A stretch of 64,000 bases of DNA. Source: Archaeoglobus sp. JdFR-27. GTDB lineage: Archaea > Halobacteriota > Archaeoglobi > Archaeoglobales > Archaeoglobaceae. Shown here piece by piece: positions 1,370 through 61,874 of the stretch. The DNA is taken from positions 1 through 64,000 of the forward strand of contig MTMO01000007.1 of NCBI GenBank assembly GCA_002011235.1, in the 5' to 3' direction. The number at the start of each line of letters is the position of its first letter. Positions within the stretch are counted from its first letter, which is position 1. The notes beneath the pieces were generated by a model that was not told the origin of the DNA, ran no database searches, and saw only the letters and a list, made by a program, of their open reading frames with translations. Made by a program: the position numbers and the translations under genes.

Positions 1370-1425
1370 AGTGGTAATTTAGATTGAACGGGAGTGAATG
1401 AAAGTTTTTTAACCCGTTTTAGCTT

Positions 1426-1761
1426 ATGGGTTTTATGCAATTTGAAACAAAAAGTGTCTTTTCAGACCCTGAGTCAGGTTTAGAAGTGGTGAAAATTAAA
1501 GTAAATGGGAGAATTCTCACAGGCATTAAAATGGATCTTGCAAATGCGCCGCTTTTGATCTTCAAAGGCGAGAAAGTTATGGTTGGATGTGGCTACTTGA
1601 ACGTTGAAACCTTGGATAGGATGGGGAATGCTGCATGCATCGTAACCGGTGTGAGAGAGTTTGAAGATGTCCTAAATGCAGAGATAAAAGCGGTTACTTC
1701 AAAAGCGTCAGAACTCGGGGTTGAAACAGGTATGAAAGGACTGGATGTATTGACCTTATAA
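1426..1761 (+). CDS. DUF1805 (YunC-like) protein
   Basis: A 111-residue protein matching the DUF1805/YunC family by its layout: GILTGIKMDLANAPLLI-like first half (residues 30-48), then the conserved MVGCGYLNVETLDRMGNA near residues 51-68. No biochemical role is established for the family. An internal ATG at 1435 (MQFETK) is a possible alternative start, since neither ATG has a clear Shine-Dalgarno. It converges on the small regulator at 1815. Confidence 0.8.
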   Translation: MGFMQFETKSVFSDPESGLEVVKIKVNGRILTGIKMDLANAPLLIFKGEKVMVGCGYLNVETLDRMGNAACIVTGVREFEDVLNAEIKAVTSKASELGVETGMKGLDVLTL

Positions 1762-1814
1762 CCTTCGATCCTTCGATTCATGAGTATGTAACTTCTCAGA
1801 GTCTCAGATTTTAC

Positions 1815-2102
1815 TTAAGTCTTCAAAACGAAAACAGCCTCCTCAATCCGCTGTTCCTTGCATTTAGGGCACCTAGTTGCTTTTGGCTTGCTGAATTCAA
1901 AACCACAAGATTTGCACCTCGGTGGAATCATGAGGAGCTTCAAACCCTTCTTTTTAAGCGCTTTAGGTATTTTTTCAATGGTGGCCAAAACCTCTTTCTC
2001 CATTCTTGGATCGAGATCGAGCTGATAGATTATCTCGCTAACTGTTAAGCCCTCATCGTGCTCCAGCAAGAGATCGATTATCCTTTCTCTGAGAGTTTTC
2101 AT
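1815..2102 (-). CDS. HTH protein with C-terminal zinc ribbon (COG3357-like)
   Basis: 95 residues. The N-terminal half reads as a helix-turn-helix (residues 3-50, [20 protein letters not shown]). The C-terminal half holds a rubredoxin-like zinc ribbon, CKSCGF...CPKCKE (residues about 63-82). This HTH plus Zn-ribbon layout is the archaeal family annotated as a predicted transcriptional regulator, and its target is unknown. It is transcribed divergently from ilvC with about 150 bases between the starts. Confidence 0.8.
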
Positions 2103-2216
2103 GCTCCCAGTGTTTGCCTAATTAGCTTATTTAGCTTATCCCTCCTCTGCTTCATATTACTTCATATTCACCTCATATTAGATCTCAACATCAAGGATCA
2201 GCCTAAACTCGAAAGA

Positions 2217-2230
2217 AATGTATATAAACG
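2217..2230 (+). promoter_or_regulatory. ilvC promoter (BRE/TATA)
   Basis: A purine-rich BRE-like stretch (cgaaagaaatg) runs into TATATAAAC. The TATA centre is about 35 bases before the ilvC ATG at 2259, leaving a short leader. Confidence 0.6.
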
Positions 2231-2258
2231 GTCTGTCACTACTTTGCTCGGTGATTTT

Positions 2259-3263
2259 ATGGCGAAGGTATACTACGACAAAGATGCAGATCTAGAAATT
2301 TTAAAAGGTTTGAAGATTGCAATTATCGGCTACGGAAGCCAAGGTCATGCACACGCCCAGAATCTGAGAGACTCGGGCTTAGATGTTATTGTTGCAGATA
2401 AGGGAGGAACAAAGAACTGGGAAAGGGCTGTTAAAGACGGTTTTGAAGTTGTTGAAACTGCTAAAGCCGTAAAAGAGGCTCAGGTTATAATGTTTTTGGT
2501 GCCTGATAACCTTCAACCGGCTGTTTTCTACGAGAGCATCAAAGACAACCTCAAAGAGGAAGACATGCTCATGTTCGCCCATGGCTTTAATATCCATTAC
2601 AATCAGATTATCCCGCCCGAGTTTGTTGATGTAACGATGATCGCTCCCAAGGGTCCAGGCCATATAGTCAGGAGGATGTATACTGAGGGAATAGGAGTTC
2701 CCGCCTTGGTTGCTGTACACCAAAACTACACCGGCAAAGCACTCGAGAAGGCTTTAGCCTATGCAAAGGGAATAGGGGCAACGAAGGCTGGAGTTATTGA
2801 AACCACGTTTAAGGAAGAAACCGAGACGGATCTTTTTGGGGAGCAGGTTGATCTATGCGGTGGGGTTGCTGAAATGATCAAGTCATCCTTTGAGGTTTTG
2901 GTTGAGGCTGGCTACCAGCCTGAAATCGCCTATTTTGAGGTGTTGCATGAGCTGAAACTCATAGTGGATCTCATCTACGAAGGCGGAATCTACGCGATGT
3001 GGTATTCTGTCAGCGACACAGCCAAATATGGCGGAATGACCCGAGGAAAGAGAATCTTCACCGAGCAGACGAAGGAGGAGATGAGGAAGATACTCAGAGA
3101 GATTCAGACGGGTGAGTTTGCAAGGGAATGGATCCTCGAAAACCAGGCAAATCGGCCAGTCTTCAACAAACTGCTTGAGATGGAGAAGAACCATCCAATC
3201 GAGAAGGTTGGAAAAGAGCTAAGGAAGATGATGCCCTGGCTTAAAGGAATTGATGTTGAATAA
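2259..3263 (+). CDS. ilvC: Ketol-acid reductoisomerase
   Basis: It converts acetolactate or acetohydroxybutyrate to dihydroxy acids using NAD(P)H and Mg2+, in valine, leucine and isoleucine synthesis. From the ATG at 2259 ([11 protein letters not shown]) it gives 334 residues, the normal class I length. The longer open frame from 2058 adds residues unlike the family and overlaps the promoter. The Rossmann motif [19 protein letters not shown] is at about 21-39, and the C-terminal knotted domain has the acidic Mg ligands in ETDLFGEQ and the EVLHE segment. It stands alone here, without ilvB, ilvN or leuA. Confidence 0.97.
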
Positions 3264-3302
3264 GTTGATGAGATGAGTAACCTTTTCTTTTTTAATTGAT
3301 GT

Positions 3303-3956
3303 ATGAGAGATCCATCCTCAATCGGCTGGGAAAAGCTACTGGATCTGATGGAGGGGGAGGCTAAGAAGAGGCTAGCCCCAGTCTTTACCCTCAAAGGTTT
3401 TCTCAACGATCCCTTCCAGCATCTCGTTTTTACCATCCTGAGCGCTAGGACGAGGGATGAGCAAACGGTTAAGGCAGCAGGAAACCTTTTTAAGGTTGCA
3501 AACACACCAGAGAAACTTGCAAAGCTTTCAGAAGAAGAAATAGCTACTTTAATCGAAAGTGCAGGTTTTTACAGGAACAAAGCAAAAAATCTCAAGGCCA
3601 TGGCAGAGATACTCGTAAAGGAGTACAACTCGAAAGTTCCAGATTCCTTCGAAGAGCTCGTAAAGCTGCCTGGGGTTGGGAGAAAAACCGCAAATGTTGT
3701 TTTGGCCTACGCCTTCAACAGGAACACGATAGCAGTCGATACCCACGTGCATAGGCTGGCGAACAGATTAGGGTTCGTAAGGACTGGAAAGCCAGAGGAA
3801 ACTGAAGTTGAGCTAAAAAAGGTTGTTCCACCGGAATTATGGAGAAAAGTTAACAGGGTATTCGTCGCCTTTGGGCAGACGGTCTGTAAACCGATTAAGC
3901 CTTTATGTGAAGATTGCCCCATCGAGGGTGTATGTCCAAAGCTCAGTGTTAAATAG
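3303..3956 (+). CDS. nth: Endonuclease III, base-excision DNA glycosylase/AP lyase
   Basis: 217 residues. It removes oxidised pyrimidines from DNA and cleaves the AP site. The helix-hairpin-helix LPGVGRKTANVV contains the catalytic Lys at 128, the catalytic Asp is at 146 in AVDTHVHR, and the C-terminal [4Fe-4S] loop has Cys 195, 202, 205 and 211 (C-x6-C-x2-C-x5-C). All key residues are intact. It starts 39 bases after ilvC. Confidence 0.96.
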   Translation: MRDPSSIGWEKLLDLMEGEAKKRLAPVFTLKGFLNDPFQHLVFTILSARTRDEQTVKAAGNLFKVANTPEKLAKLSEEEIATLIESAGFYRNKAKNLKAMAEILVKEYNSKVPDSFEELVKLPGVGRKTANVVLAYAFNRNTIAVDTHVHRLANRLGFVRTGKPEETEVELKKVVPPELWRKVNRVFVAFGQTVCKPIKPLCEDCPIEGVCPKLSVK

Positions 3957-23327: not shown

Positions 23328-23412
23328 TATACCAAGAACAGAGTATAGCTATTTAATTTTTTTGTTATTAACCAACATCATATAATGAAAAAATTATAAA
23401 ATATATAAATTT

Positions 23413-23646
23413 TCAGATAGGGATAACTTTTTTGATTTCAGGTATTTTACTCCTTAAATGCTGCTCAACTACCATTGTGAGCGTGATTTGGGACATGGGA
23501 CAACCACCACATGCCCCAAGAAGTTGAACTTTAACCACTCCTTCTTTCTCTTCAACATCAACCAGGGCTATATTCCCTCCGTCCCTCATAAGAGCAGGTC
23601 TTATATCTTTATCGATAATTTCCTCAACTTTTTCTTTCAGTGACAT
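23413..23646 (-). CDS. NifU C-terminal-domain (Nfu-type) Fe-S scaffold
   Basis: 77 residues, essentially one Nfu domain. The start resembles VEEIIDKDIRPALMRDGGN, and the cluster-binding motif is GACGGCPMSQITL (CxxC at about 50-53). It assembles or carries a [4Fe-4S] cluster to target proteins. It stands alone in a single-gene unit, as usual for archaeal Nfu. Confidence 0.92.
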   Translation of the reverse strand: MSLKEKVEEIIDKDIRPALMRDGGNIALVDVEEKEGVVKVQLLGACGGCPMSQITLTMVVEQHLRSKIPEIKKVIPI

Positions 23647-23688
23647 AGCCTTATGTTTTATAAGAAAGATATTTAAAGATTCCCATTC

Positions 23689-24048
23689 TCAGGATTTTTT
23701 GGGCTCTACGTATTTTTCAATGAGTTCAATTATACTTCTTCTCATAAAGAGCTTTTCTAGTATGGCTATCGAACCTGCATCCAGCATTTCGCTCCCTTTA
23801 CTTGAAGCAAATGCGGTGACGGCTATCACCTTCGCCTTTGAATCGATTTAGAGTATTTTCTTGGTCGCTTCAACACCATCCATTTCAGGCATCATAACAT
23901 CCATTAGAACTATATCTGGCTTGAAAATTTTGAAGTACTTCACTGCCTCATTTCCGTTGGAGGCTTCCATGATTACGTGACAGTTCAGCATAACCTTGAG
24001 AACTTCCCTCACTGTAATATCGTCATCAACCACCAGAACTTTCGCCAT
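23689..24048 (-). pseudogene. CheY-like response regulator broken by an in-frame stop
   Basis: Residues 1-66 give a normal receiver N-terminus: VLVVDDDITVREVL, phosphoacceptor in PDIVLMDVMMPEMDG. A TAA at 23848-23850 then stops translation after ATKKIL. Beyond it the same frame stays open for 52 more codons, reads as the rest of the domain (AKVIAVTAFASS, then LEKLF), and ends at TGA 23689. The usual Lys-Pro of the last motif is Lys-Leu. One base (TAA from GAA or CAA) would restore about 119 residues. The stop is UAA, so pyrrolysine decoding does not apply. No histidine kinase lies nearby. Confidence 0.85.
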
Positions 24049-24148
24049 CGTTTAACAATTGAATATATATCACAATCTTTCGAAAAACCCGATATAAAAA
24101 CAATAAAAACAAAAAAACAAAATTGGAAAAAGGTTGGGAACTTGGATT

Positions 24149-25093
24149 TCAAATTTCGATCTGATACGATTTCAGTAGTACTTCCGCATTCAGCTTTCCG
24201 TGGACGTAAGTCTTCCCCGTAGATTTATCATTCACAGCGATTTGAGCGGGAGCGAAAAGATTCGGGTCTATTTTATAGAAATCATATTCTGCTGCCTTGA
24301 AAATCTCATAGAAGGGTTTTCCATAATCCTTCGAAGTGTTGGATGGAACATTTTTAAGGATTTCATCGTATTTTTCTACCGTGAGGAATACACTGCCATA
24401 GTACATCATGCTGTCATTCGTTGATCCCATAGCTTTCAAATCATTCTCGAGGATTGGAGCGATCGGACACCTTCCGGTTCCGCTGATTATAAGCTTCGGA
24501 TCGTAGCCAATCTCTGCCATCTTATATATCGCAGTTTCAACAATTCTGCCGGATATCTGGACACTTCCAACGATCGATGCTGTTGGGGCAACGACCGCAT
24601 AAACGTTCTCTGGCTCAACCTCGCACTCCTTCGCGATGAAATCCATCACCTCTTCATTCGGGAGCTTTGAGGCTTCGAGAGCTATAACAGCATACTCCGA
24701 ATCATCCTGATATTCAATCTGATCGTAAGTTTTCTTAGGCTTTAAGGCCAGCGCCCTAGCAGGCCCGCTACCCATCGCAAAGTACTTTCCAACGCTAACA
24801 GCCCATCCGGCTTTCTGGCTTCCCAAACAAGCAACCGCTGGATGATCAGTGTATTCTGTTATAAAGGCAAATGGAATGTCGTTAATCGTGTCAGTTACGA
24901 TGCTAACCTCTGCCAAACCCCCCATACAGATCTGTGTGTACATCAATCCTGCTTCATACCCTCCTGGCACATTTACACCACAATCAATCACCGTAGCTCC
25001 ATTTTCAAGCTTTTTGGATTCGATTCGAAGCTCTTCCTCAAAATCAAGCATGTCTTCAACTATGTCCATCGCCATCTCATTAACACTCACCAT
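24149..25093 (-). CDS. mch: Methenyltetrahydromethanopterin cyclohydrolase
   Basis: 314 residues, normal length. It interconverts methenyl- and formyl-H4MPT in the C1 pathway. Family blocks are visible: [20 protein letters not shown] (about 32-51), GSGPARALA (about 118) and [12 protein letters not shown] (about 208). The ATG is preceded by a GGTG-type site (complement of caccatttacacc). Its presence marks a methanopterin-using archaeon. Confidence 0.97.
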
Positions 25094-41757: not shown

Positions 41758-42489
41758 ATGAAGATAGTGTTTGACGAAAGCTTTCTCGATGTTTACACTT
41801 CCGATCCCGCCGCCTCTCCAGGAAGATTAGAATCTATTTTGCAGGAAATACAAGATTATGAGTTTGTAAAACCTGAACCAGCATCGGAGGATGACATTCT
41901 TTTGGTTCACACCTCTGCCCATCTTGAGTTCGTAAAAAGCATGCCAAGAATTCATGAGCTCGCGATTCTCGCTGCTGGAGCGACGATTAAAGCTTCTCGA
42001 ATAGCATTTAACGAACCTGCTTTCGCCTTAGTAAGACCTCCCGGTCATCACGCAAGCCCGAACAGCTCATGGGGGTTCTGCTATTTTAACAACATTGCCA
42101 TATCCGTCAGAAAGCTTGTCTCTGAAGGTAGAATTGATAAAGCCGTTATTGTGGACTTCGACCTTCATTTCGGGGATGGAACTGACAATACCTTTGCAGA
42201 TGATGAAAAAGTCAACTACTTCCACATGCCTGGGGGGGAAGTTGATAGCATTTCAGAGTTCTTGGGGAGAAACGAATATGATATAATAGCCGTATCAGCA
42301 GGTTTTGACAAACACAGAGACGACTGGGGGAGATATCTAGAGACCAAAAACTACACGGAGATCGGGAGAATAATCAGAGAATTCTCAGAAGAAATATGTG
42401 GGGGGAAAAGATACGCTGCGCTTGAGGGTGGATACATTACCAGCGTGTTAGGAAAAAACGTAAGGGCCTTTATAGAGGGTTTCAAATAG
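41758..42489 (+). CDS. Compact histone-deacetylase-family amidohydrolase
   Basis: 243 residues, short for a family usually 300-370 long. Catalytic residues are all present: His 97/98 (RPPGHHAS), zinc ligands Asp 135 and His 137 (DFDLHFGDGT) and Asp 184 (AGFDKHRDDW), and Tyr 226 (LEGGYIT). The second His of the usual D-x-H-H is Phe. It resembles acetylpolyamine or acetoin-utilisation deacetylases rather than eukaryotic HDACs. The partner nitrilase suggests joint breakdown of an N-acylated compound. Confidence 0.9.
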   Translation: MKIVFDESFLDVYTSDPAASPGRLESILQEIQDYEFVKPEPASEDDILLVHTSAHLEFVKSMPRIHELAILAAGATIKASRIAFNEPAFALVRPPGHHASPNSSWGFCYFNNIAISVRKLVSEGRIDKAVIVDFDLHFGDGTDNTFADDEKVNYFHMPGGEVDSISEFLGRNEYDIIAVSAGFDKHRDDWGRYLETKNYTEIGRIIREFSEEICGGKRYAALEGGYITSVLGKNVRAFIEGFK

Positions 42490-42742
42490 GTGTTCGAATG
42501 GGGGGTTGTAGATACAAATATTCGAAGACATGAAGAACATCAAAGTAGGGAAATAAGCTAGATGCGTAAACCCAAAGACTTAACATTCGATCGAGTTTTT
42601 AAATTCCTCTTAAAATATCTCTTTAGAATACTTGTAGGGAGATCGTTGCGATAGTGTCTAGTAACCGTGAGATTATAACCAGTTCCATCTCCTGAAAATT
42701 CTCTAGAGGCTCCTTCACCTCTAAGCAGCAAAGGAGGTTGAA
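42490..42742 (+). other. Non-coding debris, possible transposon remnant
   Basis: There is no open frame longer than about 30 codons. The first bases (gtgttcgaatggggggttg) resemble the translation start region of the glycosyltransferase at 20932. A 30-codon frame from 42561 (MRKPKDLTFDRVFKFLLKYL) could be a fragment. With the DUF2080 remnant just after it, this may be what is left of an insertion sequence. Confidence 0.4.
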
Positions 42743-42882
42743 GTGAAGAGGGTATTTCGTTCTGAGAGAAGAAGTAGAGGTTGTTTTTAAGAGGGAAGTC
42801 ACACCTTTCGACAATTCAGCTAAAATTAATGTTTCAAAAAGGTGTCTATGGTAGAGGGTATGTGATCGTTGTTAGAGATTAA
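42743..42882 (+). pseudogene. Degenerate DUF2080 (transposon-encoded) protein
   Basis: A GTG at 42743 follows AGGAGGTTGAA. Reading across two +1 frame changes gives KRVF, then VLREEVEVVFKREVTPF and NSAKINVSKR, then VYGRGYVIVVRD and a TAA at 42880. This matches the small archaeal DUF2080 proteins often found beside insertion sequences, with the PFxNSAKI block intact. The first shift is an extra T at about 42754-42757, the second at about 42843. No full transposase is seen beside it. Confidence 0.65.
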
Positions 42883-42949
42883 TAGAGTTTTATAGAGTTT
42901 TGTCCCTATGAACTTCAACAATTTTAATATCTGACTTTAAGAAAACAGC

Positions 42950-43286
42950 ATGGATCAAAGCCTGATACTCACAGCAATCAAATGGGCACTAATTGTTTTT
43001 CTAACGGGCTTCATCGGGTATTTTGGAAAGTATTTAGGAAAGGTCTCGATTGTGAAGTTTCATGAAAGAAGGCAACCCATTGGATTTGGAGAACAAAGCA
43101 GATAAAATAGACGAATTCGATAAGATAAAAGAATTAAATGACTTGTCAAGAGATTTCAAAATCAAATAAAAAACCAAAGAGGACATAGAACTTGAAGAAG
43201 AAAAAATCAAATTAGAAAAGAAGAAGCTGAAACTTCAGAAGAAGATGCTCAAGTTCAAGAAAGGGAAAAGTTATAACGCCAAATAA
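42950..43286 (+). pseudogene. Broken membrane-anchored coiled-coil protein
   Basis: ATG 42950 opens a 51-codon frame with one membrane helix (LTAIKWALIVFLTGFIGYFG), stopping at 43105. From about 43078 the frame shifted by one continues as a charged helix (LDLENKADKIDEFDKIKEL). It has an in-frame TAA at 43167, then a Lys/Glu coiled coil (EEEKIKLEKKKLKLQKKMLK) to a TAA at 43284. Together they read as one about 110-residue protein with a frameshift and a nonsense change. The alternative is a true 51-residue membrane peptide. Confidence 0.5.
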
Positions 43287-43382
43287 TACCAATTTAATGT
43301 CGACAAATGTCAGACAATATTGGACAACATCGGTGTGTCAGTAAAGGTAAAAGTAAAATAAAAAGAAAGAATAGGTCGAGTT

Positions 43383-57670: not shown

Positions 57671-57772
57671 CTAAAGTCCTTTGGATTTCATAGCTATTCT
57701 CAGGAAATAAAACAGGCCTCCGTAGAGTACCACAAATCCAAATATTCCCATACCAATGCTCTCAGCTGACAT
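57671..57772 (-). CDS. MetS-like small subunit of the SNF transporter, 33 aa
   Basis: ATG at 57772 overlaps the transporter's TGA by one base (TGATG). Product: MSAESIGMGIFGFVVLYGG, then LFYFLRIAMKSKGL. One membrane helix with a short positive C-terminus is the signature of MetS-type small partners found beside bacterial SNF transporters such as MetPS. It is too short for standard gene calling and is likely missed in annotations. Confidence 0.78.
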   Translation of the reverse strand: MSAESIGMGIFGFVVLYGGLFYFLRIAMKSKGL

Positions 57773-59238
57773 CACTCCACCTCCGCCTGCTTAGCAGATA
57801 GTACTGCTGAAACTACCATTCCACCCAGTATTATAACCAGACCGAGACCGAGAGCACTGATAGGATAACCACTGTATGGAGCATCCAGATTGGATTTGAT
57901 GTCAAACAACAGCAACACTACCAGTACAAGTGGTGTGATCACTTTAATGCTCACATCCCACCATGGTCCAGCATTAACCTCTGAATTCCTGTTCACCCAC
58001 TCCTTAATCTTGTCAGCTCCAAAAATCCATCCTATGGCCACTGCTTCTAGCAAACCCACCAACACAAGCCCGTAAGTGTTTATAAAGTGGTCGACGATGT
58101 CCAGCCAGTACAATCCACCTTTCGTCGCATATATCAAGCTTCCAAGGAATCCTACAGCAACTGTTATGTTCACAGCCTTCTTCCTCTCCAGTCCAAATTT
58201 ATCCATCAGTGAAGCAGCAAAGGCTTCAACAAGCGAGATAGAGGAGGAAAGCCCGGCCACAACCAGAGCTAGGAAGAAGACAACTGCTGTAAATACCTTT
58301 AATGCTGGAAGCATACTTATTGCTTTAGGAAACACGACAAAGGCGAGTCCTATACTCTGAGCAACCACGTCTCCAATCCCCTGTCCCGTTGCCTGTGCCA
58401 TGTAGCCGAGAGTTCCAAAAACCGCAAAGCCTACCAGAAAGCTGAAGGCACAGTTTGCAAAGCTGACTATGAATGCGTTGTTTACGACATCACTGTCCTC
58501 AGGCAAATAGCTGGCGTAGGCAATCATTATACCCATTCCAAGGCTCAGAGTGAAAAATATCTGCCCATATGCAGCAAGCCAGACGCTGTAGTCTGTTAAT
58601 CTGCTGAAGTCCGGTTTGAGATACCAGTCTATGCCCCCCCATGCACCAGGGAGCGTGACACCTCTGATAACCAGTATGATTGCTAAAATCCAGAGTAAAG
58701 GCATGAAGATCATGTTTGCCTTTTCTATCCCTTTCTTAACACCACCAACGTCTATGAACCAGTTGATTAACCATATGACGACGACACCTACAAGTACCTC
58801 TAGCGAAAATCCGCCGAGCTGCCATGGTGAATCAGTAAGTTGTAAAACATTACCGAAGAAGTACGCCTTTGTGTCTTCTCCCCACGCCAGCGTGAAGGAT
58901 TTAAAGACGTAAACGAATGCCCAACTTATAACGACAACATAGTACATTGTTATAATAAGGCCACCCACAACAGCCCACCAGCCAATCCATTCGAAACGCC
59001 TGTTTCCTTTCCTCATTGACATCGGAGCAGAGCCCCTGAATTTGTCACCCAGACCAAATTCCAGAACCATCAAGGCTATACCTGCTGTAAACAACGCAAC
59101 AAAATATGGGATTAAGAAAGCCCCGCCACCATTGCTGTACACCAAGTAGTTAAACCTCCAAATATTACCCAAACCTATTGCAGAACCAACGGCTGCAAGT
59201 ATAAACCCCAATCTACTTCCCCAAAGCTCCCTTACCAC
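57772..59238 (-). CDS. Sodium-dependent SNF-family amino-acid transporter
   Basis: 488 residues with 12 membrane helices. Helix 1 has the sodium/substrate-site sequence AAVGSAIGLGNIWRFNY (about 16-32), followed by the NGGGAFLIPY motif. GTG 59238 has GGAGGTGAT 3 bases before it. It imports an amino acid with Na+. Position next to leucine dehydrogenase suggests branched-chain amino acids. It pairs with the 33-aa protein downstream. Confidence 0.93.
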   Translation of the reverse strand: MVRELWGSRLGFILAAVGSAIGLGNIWRFNYLVYSNGGGAFLIPYFVALFTAGIALMVLEFGLGDKFRGSAPMSMRKGNRRFEWIGWWAVVGGLIITMYYVVVISWAFVYVFKSFTLAWGEDTKAYFFGNVLQLTDSPWQLGGFSLEVLVGVVVIWLINWFIDVGGVKKGIEKANMIFMPLLWILAIILVIRGVTLPGAWGGIDWYLKPDFSRLTDYSVWLAAYGQIFFTLSLGMGIMIAYASYLPEDSDVVNNAFIVSFANCAFSFLVGFAVFGTLGYMAQATGQGIGDVVAQSIGLAFVVFPKAISMLPALKVFTAVVFFLALVVAGLSSSISLVEAFAASLMDKFGLERKKAVNITVAVGFLGSLIYATKGGLYWLDIVDHFINTYGLVLVGLLEAVAIGWIFGADKIKEWVNRNSEVNAGPWWDVSIKVITPLVLVVLLLFDIKSNLDAPYSGYPISALGLGLVIILGGMVVSAVLSAKQAEVE

Positions 59239-59278: not shown

Positions 59279-60335
59279 TCAACCTCCAATTCGCTCTATA
59301 ACCCATATTTCGGCAGCTTTGTGCGTTGAAACGTGCCTGCCCGAGCTATCAAGTATGTTCTCCGAAATTCTGAGGACTTCCTTCAACCTCTCACCAACCC
59401 GCTCAACCTCTCTAAAAAATATTTTCTTTAGATAACTTTCCATATTGAAGTTTATGTGCAACAGCGATAAGCCCTCCAGCATTAATTATGTAGTCTGGAG
59501 CGTAAAGAATTCTCATCTCAGCCAGTAGGTCTCCATGTTTCTCACTCTCCAGCTGATTGTTCGCTCCTCCTGCTATAATCCTGCATTTCAGCCTCTTTAT
59601 CGTGCTGTCGTTTATTACGCCTCCAAGAGCACAGGGAGAGAAGACATCGCATTCAACAGAGTATATCCTGCTCGGCTCAACGTATTCTGCACCCATTTTC
59701 AGAAATCTCTTCGCTTTATCCTTGTCAATGTCCGTCACAGTAACTTTCGCACCACTTTCAAAAAGGAGTCTCACAAGCTCTCCACCTACCTTCCCAAGTC
59801 CCTGCACAGCCACATGTATGTCCTCAACACTTTTATCTCCATAGACATGCTCAAGGCAGGCTTTTATACCACGATATACGCCATAGGCGGTAAATGGAGA
59901 GGGATCCAGCTTTGTACCTACTACATACTCTGTTTCAGTTCTGATGATCTTCATGTCTTGAACAGTTGTACCCACATCCTCTGCCGTGATAAAGCGACCG
60001 CCGAGTGACTGGATGAATCGCCCGTATGTTTGTAGCAGAGCTTCGCTTTTCACCTTTCCGGGATCGCCGATTATTACCGCCTTTCCTCCACCAAGGTTGA
60101 GACCGGCTGCTGCAGCTTTGAGTGTCATTGCCTTCGCAAGCCTTAGAACATCTTTCAGTGCCTCAACCTCACTTCTGTAGTTCCAGATCCTCGTTCCGCC
60201 AAGAGCTGGGCCGAGTGTGGTGTCGTGTATGGCCACTATTACCTTGAGGTTGTTAGCCTTGTCCTGAGAGAAGACTACCTCTTCAAAGTCTTCTTTCTCC
60301 ATTATCTCAAACATGTAGCTTTGCTGAAGCAGCAT
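59279..60335 (-). pseudogene. Leucine/valine dehydrogenase with a frameshift near the C-terminus
   Basis: The first frame (60335 to 59412) carries a normal amino-acid dehydrogenase: ALGGTRIWNYRSEVEALKDV, catalytic Lys in NLGGGKAVIIGDP, NAD-binding GLGKVGGELV and YAPDYIINAGGLIAVA. There it loses homology and stops. The next frame continues the family's C-terminal helix (INFNMESYLKKIFFREVERV) to a stop at 59279. One extra base at about 59455-59465 explains this. An alternative start is ATG 60314. The truncated protein would lack its last 55-60 residues and probably not fold normally. Confidence 0.85.
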
Positions 60336-60365
60336 CCGGCTCGCCCCCTACAAGAAATTCGGCTC

Positions 60366-61002
60366 TCAGACGTGTCCACCTTTCCTGGATATACTCCTTA
60401 ATTTTGCAATATCTCCCTCAGAAAGGTGACTGAATCTCTCCTGAGCGAAAAGATACTCCTCAACATTCTTCATCTTCCTTCTACCTTCAGCTATGGCTTT
60501 GCTAAAACCCGTCAGCCTGAAATGTCTGTCATCACACTCATACAAAATCCACATACCCGTCTGAACAGCAAGCTTCCCTATTTTCACAGTCTCATCCATG
60601 GGATGTCTCCATCCAGGAGGGCATGGTGAGAGAATCTCAATATATCTGAAACTTTCCAGATCCTTTGCTCTCTTTACCTTATAGTAAAGGGTCATCAAGT
60701 AACTTGCTGAGGTTGTGGCTACGTATGGAATTCCGTGGGCCAGCATTAGCTCTGCAACATCCTTCCTGTGCTCCTTCTTCCCAGTCCACGTTGTTGTTGT
60801 CCACGCTCCACAGACTTGGCTTCTCTCTCGTATTGATTCGTCAGAGGTTCTTGTAAATGTCATCACAAGCGCACCTCTCCTTTCTGCTCCAAAAAGTATT
60901 GACTGCACCTCAAAGCCACCCCAATATATTCCTCTATAAATATCTTCGACGCAGTTATTGCACCCTGCTCACCTCTTCCGTAAACCTGATTTCACATTTC
61001 AT
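60366..61002 (-). pseudogene. Collapsed 2-oxoacid:ferredoxin oxidoreductase cluster (porG head fused to porB tail)
   Basis: From ATG 61002 the reading goes through a PorG-like start (MKCEIRFT, then GRGEQGAITASKIF, then WGGFEVQSILFGAERRG), changing frame twice at about 60975 and 60935. It then runs open as PorG (TFTRTSDESIRERSQV). It joins in frame to a PorB-like C-terminal half: GAWTTTTWTGKKEHRKDVAE, HGIPYVATTSASY, LSPCPPGWRHPM. The rest of porG, porD, porA and the TPP-binding front of porB are absent. An internal deletion explains this, so no active enzyme can be made. The surviving open frame from GTG 60908 is 180 codons. It lies 30 bases before leucine dehydrogenase. Confidence 0.82.
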
Positions 61003-61040
61003 ATCCACAATAATTAATCAGTTGAAAACCTATATAACAC

Positions 61041-61060
61041 AACAATCGATCATGATTGTT
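61041..61060. promoter_or_regulatory. Palindromic operator and TATA upstream of the por/leucine dehydrogenase operon
   Basis: AACAATCGATCATGATTGTT has 7-base arms (AACAATC/GATTGTT) around GATCAT. On the minus strand it lies just upstream of TTATATAG (61030-61037), itself about 30 bases before the por remnant ATG. It shares TCGATCATGAT with the 57594 palindrome. The HTH_10 regulator encoded next door at 61086 is the obvious candidate to bind it. Confidence 0.6.
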
Positions 61061-61085
61061 TTTAAAATAGATTTTAATTAAAAAA

Positions 61086-61874
61086 TTATTCAAAATCCAA
61101 AATTTTCGCACGTAATCTGGCGTATCTAAAAGATGTATCTATAAGATATGGCTCCCGATCTCGGATCTCTTCAACAAGACTGCGCATTATTTTAAATTCA
61201 GCCATTCGAAGGTGATGTAGACACGTTGATTTTGTTACTCCAAACTTCTTCGCAAGCTCATCCACAGTTGTCCTTCTGGGCCACTCAAAGTAACCACTTT
61301 TGTAAGCTTCCAGAAGCACCCTCTTCTGCTTCATTGAAAGACTCTTGGAAATCACTCCGATTATGTCTTCGATTTCTTCATCTTCTAGTGACCTGAGATT
61401 AGATATGCTCAGGACCTGAACCTCTATCCCCTCAAGTTTCCTCAACTTGTTGAGCGTTTCACTCATCTTTTCCTCATCAACCAAGATCGTCCAGTACTCA
61501 TATCCACCAGAAATGGATATTCTCATGGGCATAAATTCCAATGAAAATACATTATCATAAAACGTAGTCTGTGGAGCAAATCTAGCGTGGATGTCTGCTT
61601 CAAGATCTTTTTTACCTATTATATAAACATCATATGCGTAATCACTGTAGTTCTTGATGTCCTCTATAAAAACCCTGAGTGCCCCATAACTCTCAGAAAT
61701 CAAGTGAAAGTTTGCTCTCACCTCTTTCCCCAGCTTGAATACACCTTTTGTGATCAAGCATACGTTGGGGTGGTCTTTCGTAGACTCAATTGACCAGCAT
61801 CCGGGATGCCACAATTTTAGGGAGACTTTTTTGAGGTTCCTCATTTCACCGCCTTCAACACCATTATCAATCAT
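61086..61874 (-). CDS. HTH_10 (Bat-type) transcriptional regulator
   Basis: 262 residues. The N-terminal 190 residues have no clear family and could sense a ligand; they include HPGCWSIESTKDHPNVCLI. The C-terminal HTH_10 domain (about 199-250) shows SMKQKRVLLEAYKSGYFEWP and DELAKKFGVTKSTCLHHLR, as in bacterio-opsin-activator-type regulators. ATG 61874 lies about 25 bases after TTTATATAAC and may be leaderless; ATG 61844 with GGCGGTGAA is an alternative. It sits between the amino-acid operon and the DUF917 operon. Confidence 0.85.
   Translation of the reverse strand: MIDNGVEGGEMRNLKKVSLKLWHPGCWSIESTKDHPNVCLITKGVFKLGKEVRANFHLISESYGALRVFIEDIKNYSDYAYDVYIIGKKDLEADIHARFAPQTTFYDNVFSLEFMPMRISISGGYEYWTILVDEEKMSETLNKLRKLEGIEVQVLSISNLRSLEDEEIEDIIGVISKSLSMKQKRVLLEAYKSGYFEWPRRTTVDELAKKFGVTKSTCLHHLRMAEFKIMRSLVEEIRDREPYLIDTSFRYARLRAKILDFE

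Follow-up and report, generated by a model that had tools for sequence, protein, structure and literature searches.

In the Archaeoglobaceae, operons of the VOR type (beta subunit model NF008818, gamma subunit model TIGR02175) encode the gamma, delta, alpha and beta subunits of a 2-oxoacid ferredoxin oxidoreductase. The intact cluster most useful for comparison is that of Archaeoglobus sp. JdFR-37 (genome G017, locus L041), where an HTH regulator is followed by porGD (295 aa), porA (385 aa), porB (313 aa), a dehydrogenase (369 aa) and an SNF symporter, the latter represented only by its first 34 residues at the contig edge. We read the 295-aa gene as a gamma subunit continued by a C-terminal two-cluster ferredoxin-like part, that is, as porG and porD fused. 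Fused porGD lies at 3270-4157 of L041 and at 4208-5068 of L040, a second intact cluster, and is a single gene in all the intact Archaeoglobaceae clusters of this type that we read. The order porG-porD-porA-porB that a preliminary description of our locus had taken as the archaeal standard needs correcting for this family, in that porG and porD are not separate genes.

The window analysed here comprises the first 64,000 nucleotides of contig MTMO01000007.1 of the thermophilic archaeon Archaeoglobus sp. JdFR-27, and it carries the flanks of such a cluster on the reverse strand. An HTH_10 transcription regulator with an intact frame (61086..61874) occupies the same place as in intact clusters, a Glu/Leu/Val-dehydrogenase-like gene (59280..60335) lies downstream in a broken state, and an SNF-type sodium symporter (57772..59238) adjoins the cluster, as it does at the L041 contig edge. 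These flanking genes stand in the same order as in L041 and each is nearest to its counterpart there (78% identity for the regulator, 79% for the dehydrogenase). What lies between them is collinear with the VOR-type operon in two places, where gamma begins and where beta ends. It lacks alpha and delta altogether, most of gamma, and the catalytic half of beta, and what is left is frameshifted, so that no functional set of the four subunits is encoded here.

In nucleotide alignment with L041, 2,243 bp are absent and replaced by at most 4 bp: one collinear stretch ends at reference base 364 and the next begins at 2608, and the missing span runs from about codon 66 of porGD to about codon 143 of porB, taking with it porA and most of porGD (delta and most of gamma). 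Homology that is collinear on either side of the gap, beside an intact syntenic relative and flanking genes of identical order, bears out the proposal that a single internal deletion from mid-porG to mid-porB produced the locus. We therefore consider it very probable, as read from the assembled sequence, that this is a pseudogene created by an internal deletion of about 2.24 kb in a redundant copy of a VOR-type operon.

The two remnants lie on the reverse strand and meet at 60810..60813, where the bases CTGT align to neither flank, rather than at about 60730-60760 where the junction had been placed earlier. Upstream is the 5' remnant of porGD (60813..61002, from gamma, with its native ATG at 61002), and downstream the 3' remnant of porB (60338..60809, beta from residue ~143), the frame of which ends early, at 60366. 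A Tyr codon stands in frame at the break in both genes (Gln-Val-Tyr in porG, Pro-Tyr-Gly-Ala-Trp in porB) and the deletion probably joined the two, which would account for the uninterrupted frame. Another candidate breakpoint was the heptamer AGAGAAG, which porG and porB share just ahead of this codon; the later Tyr codon was preferred because the spacing matches porG up to Gln-Val. With DNA identity to the nearest intact relative reaching only some 70-72%, the position of the breakpoint is approximate.

The frame that crosses the junction has 180 codons (60366-60908, reverse strand) and combines residues ~30-65 of the gamma subunit with residues ~143-280 of the beta subunit of a 2-oxoacid ferredoxin oxidoreductase. 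Among NCBIfam models, its residues 5-34 match the PorC/gamma models PRK08534 (1.6e-6) and TIGR02175 (4.3e-6) at profile positions 37-66, and the VOR beta model NF008818 (9e-51) aligns through its positions 142-283 with residues 30-172. A search of the PDB divided the frame in the same way, residues 5-33 resembling residues 37-65 of PFOR gamma (9bt4_E, E 0.004) and residues 43-165 resembling PFOR beta (9bt4_C, 1.5e-21), while a Pfam search of the frame gave no match over its cut-off. Aligned separately to the two families, the start of the frame thus goes to gamma and the rest to beta, which upholds the earlier reading of a gamma N-terminal part joined in frame to a beta C-terminal part. Comparison with the paralogous genes on contig C33 of the same genome (L040) gave a concordant picture: porGD residues 8-24 correspond to 60982-60932 and, in another frame, residues 30-65 to 60917-60813, and the stretch 60809-60396 matches porB residues 143-280. 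Since the best beta model is that of VOR, although the score lies below its cut-off, the oxidoreductase was probably of the VOR type, with 2-ketoisovalerate as the likely substrate, and the neighbouring Glu/Leu-dehydrogenase-like gene fits this assignment. The preliminary description feared that a naive annotation would call the frame a normal beta subunit; this is doubtful, as it scores 173 bits against NF008818 where the model requires 405.

The remnant carries further disabling changes. In the porG start, alignment with L041 reveals losses of one base near 60981 and near 60934, the two frameshifts already suspected there, together with a three-base loss near 60895, and an additional frameshift near 60407 closes the frame early at the porB end. 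Translation that begins at the native ATG (61002) runs for 15 codons and then meets a stop. The deleted half of beta is the one that holds the cysteines ligating the clusters and the GDG...NN thiamine-diphosphate motif, both of which precede the junction in L041 porB. With this stop, porA gone and the catalytic half of porB gone, no working subunit can be made, and the remnant is almost certainly inactive as a subunit.

Relaxed selection is also recorded in the substitutions, which we polarised with Geoglobus-type outgroups. In the beta remnant, codon positions 1 and 2 changed 30 times on the branch of the window copy and 8 times on the sister branch, against 28 and 25 changes at position 3 (Fisher p 0.015), and in the beta tree the end branch of the window copy measures 0.45 versus 0.096. 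The decay extends to the adjacent dehydrogenase, in which a net loss of 11 bp near 59415-59430 shifts the frame of the final ~50 codons (its best NCBIfam model, tryptophan dehydrogenase ScyB, is matched under the cut-off); here the counts are 42 vs 17 at positions 1 and 2 and 57 vs 59 at position 3, with p 0.006 for one outgroup and 0.017-0.10 for the others. In the regulator the same codon-position test gave no significant excess of changes. Selection on the remnant is relaxed, the test being statistically modest, and the operon copy is decaying, with the regulator perhaps exempt.

With 180 codons still open across the junction and both promoter region and regulator retained, a transcript and a short peptide may still be made, and one could suppose that selection maintains the chimera as a small working protein or for some regulatory role. 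We regard such maintenance as highly unlikely: the GTG at 60908 with which the frame begins aligns with an internal porG codon, the native start leads to the early stop, and first- and second-position substitutions are in excess. Moreover, among the 99 relatives searched 93 genomes match, and among the matches listed the window is alone in covering both halves; a natural PorG-PorB fusion family of this layout was accordingly rejected.

The intact cluster that the preliminary description recommended looking for is present on contig C33, with all genes open (GD 286 aa, A 378 aa, B 307 aa, dehydrogenase 371 aa). It has the order regulator, porGD, porA, porB and dehydrogenase, like the family of the window copy, but it is complete and belongs to another regulator clade, its regulator being 58% and its beta subunit 64-67% identical to those of the window. 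More distant 2-oxoacid oxidoreductase clusters are found on contigs C26 and C43 of the same genome. As the assembly is a draft of 67 contigs with an estimated contamination of 3.9%, and as the junction is read from it, one might suppose that an intact operon exists and that the assembler misjoined porG to porB. Such a collapse has a very small probability, because a search of the rest of the assembly found no stray porGD, porA or porB fragment of the window copy; an identity of only 64% between the remnant and the C33 copy means that these were not merged; and the frameshifts, which arose independently on either side of the junction as well as in the dehydrogenase, speak together with the relaxed selection for long inactivity.

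As for the origin of the window copy, the regulator tree separates with full support a group formed by the window, G017, genome G025 and Geoglobus-type genomes from one formed by C33 and the other genomes of the genus. The SNF symporter occurs in this genome and in some other genera of the family, and searching the five genomes that we assign to the same genus gave no match to it at E 1e-60; it may have arrived together with the operon. The tree grouping and this lack of symporter matches suggest horizontal acquisition of the window copy, the source of the cassette being a G017- or Geoglobus-like lineage.

The promoter region of the lost operon is retained at 61028..61062 (reverse strand), as a near-palindromic AACAATCATGATCGATTGTT followed by a TATA-like TTATATAG. 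The element is conserved before porGD in intact clusters, L041 included, with a palindromic core and then TTATATAG; the core reads ATCATGAT in the window, in G017 and in two clusters of the Geoglobus type, whereas C33-type clusters have AACATGTT. As a candidate operator, the element appears to have diverged in step with the clades of the HTH_10 regulator. That the deletion product is transcribed from the retained promoter into a short gamma-beta peptide modulating the C33 enzyme complex is conceivable, and we give this idea hardly any credence. Elsewhere in the window, otherwise 86% covered, three stretches of more than 800 bp each are without an open frame of 130 codons (42487-43361, 23349-24151 and 1-813), and other remnants or RNA genes are possible there.

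The deletion reading would imply an ancestral second copy arranged as regulator, porGD, porA, porB, dehydrogenase and symporter, and redundant with the C33 cluster. One deletion would have fused porGD at about codon 66 to porB at about codon 143; the remnant would then have drifted under relaxed selection while the adjacent dehydrogenase decayed too, with the enzyme presumably supplied by the intact C33 cluster. We infer that redundancy was the cause of the loss.

Genome G004, which we take to be a member of this genus, carries the operon twice, intact on its contig C149 and decayed on C217 (L048). The latter (1400-3691) carries a deletion from porGD residue ~170 to porA residue ~355-356, plus frameshifts and stops. 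It resembles the window in being a redundant copy broken by an internal deletion and frameshifts, but the deletion spans a different region (most of porA together with the end of porGD), and its regulator falls within the C33-type clade; it is therefore an independent event.

The locus is a commonplace case in which deletion has turned a redundant operon into a pseudogene, a phenomenon of an already known type, and searching the literature for reports of a VOR pseudogene in Archaeoglobus returned nothing specific. The frame 60366-60908 should not be annotated as a beta subunit. The locus offers a snapshot of the loss of a redundant archaeal catabolic operon, in which deletion and frameshifts reach as far as the dehydrogenase while regulator and promoter stay, and the parallel loss in a genome of the same genus suggests that second copies of the VOR-type operon have been repeatedly gained and lost in the Archaeoglobaceae.
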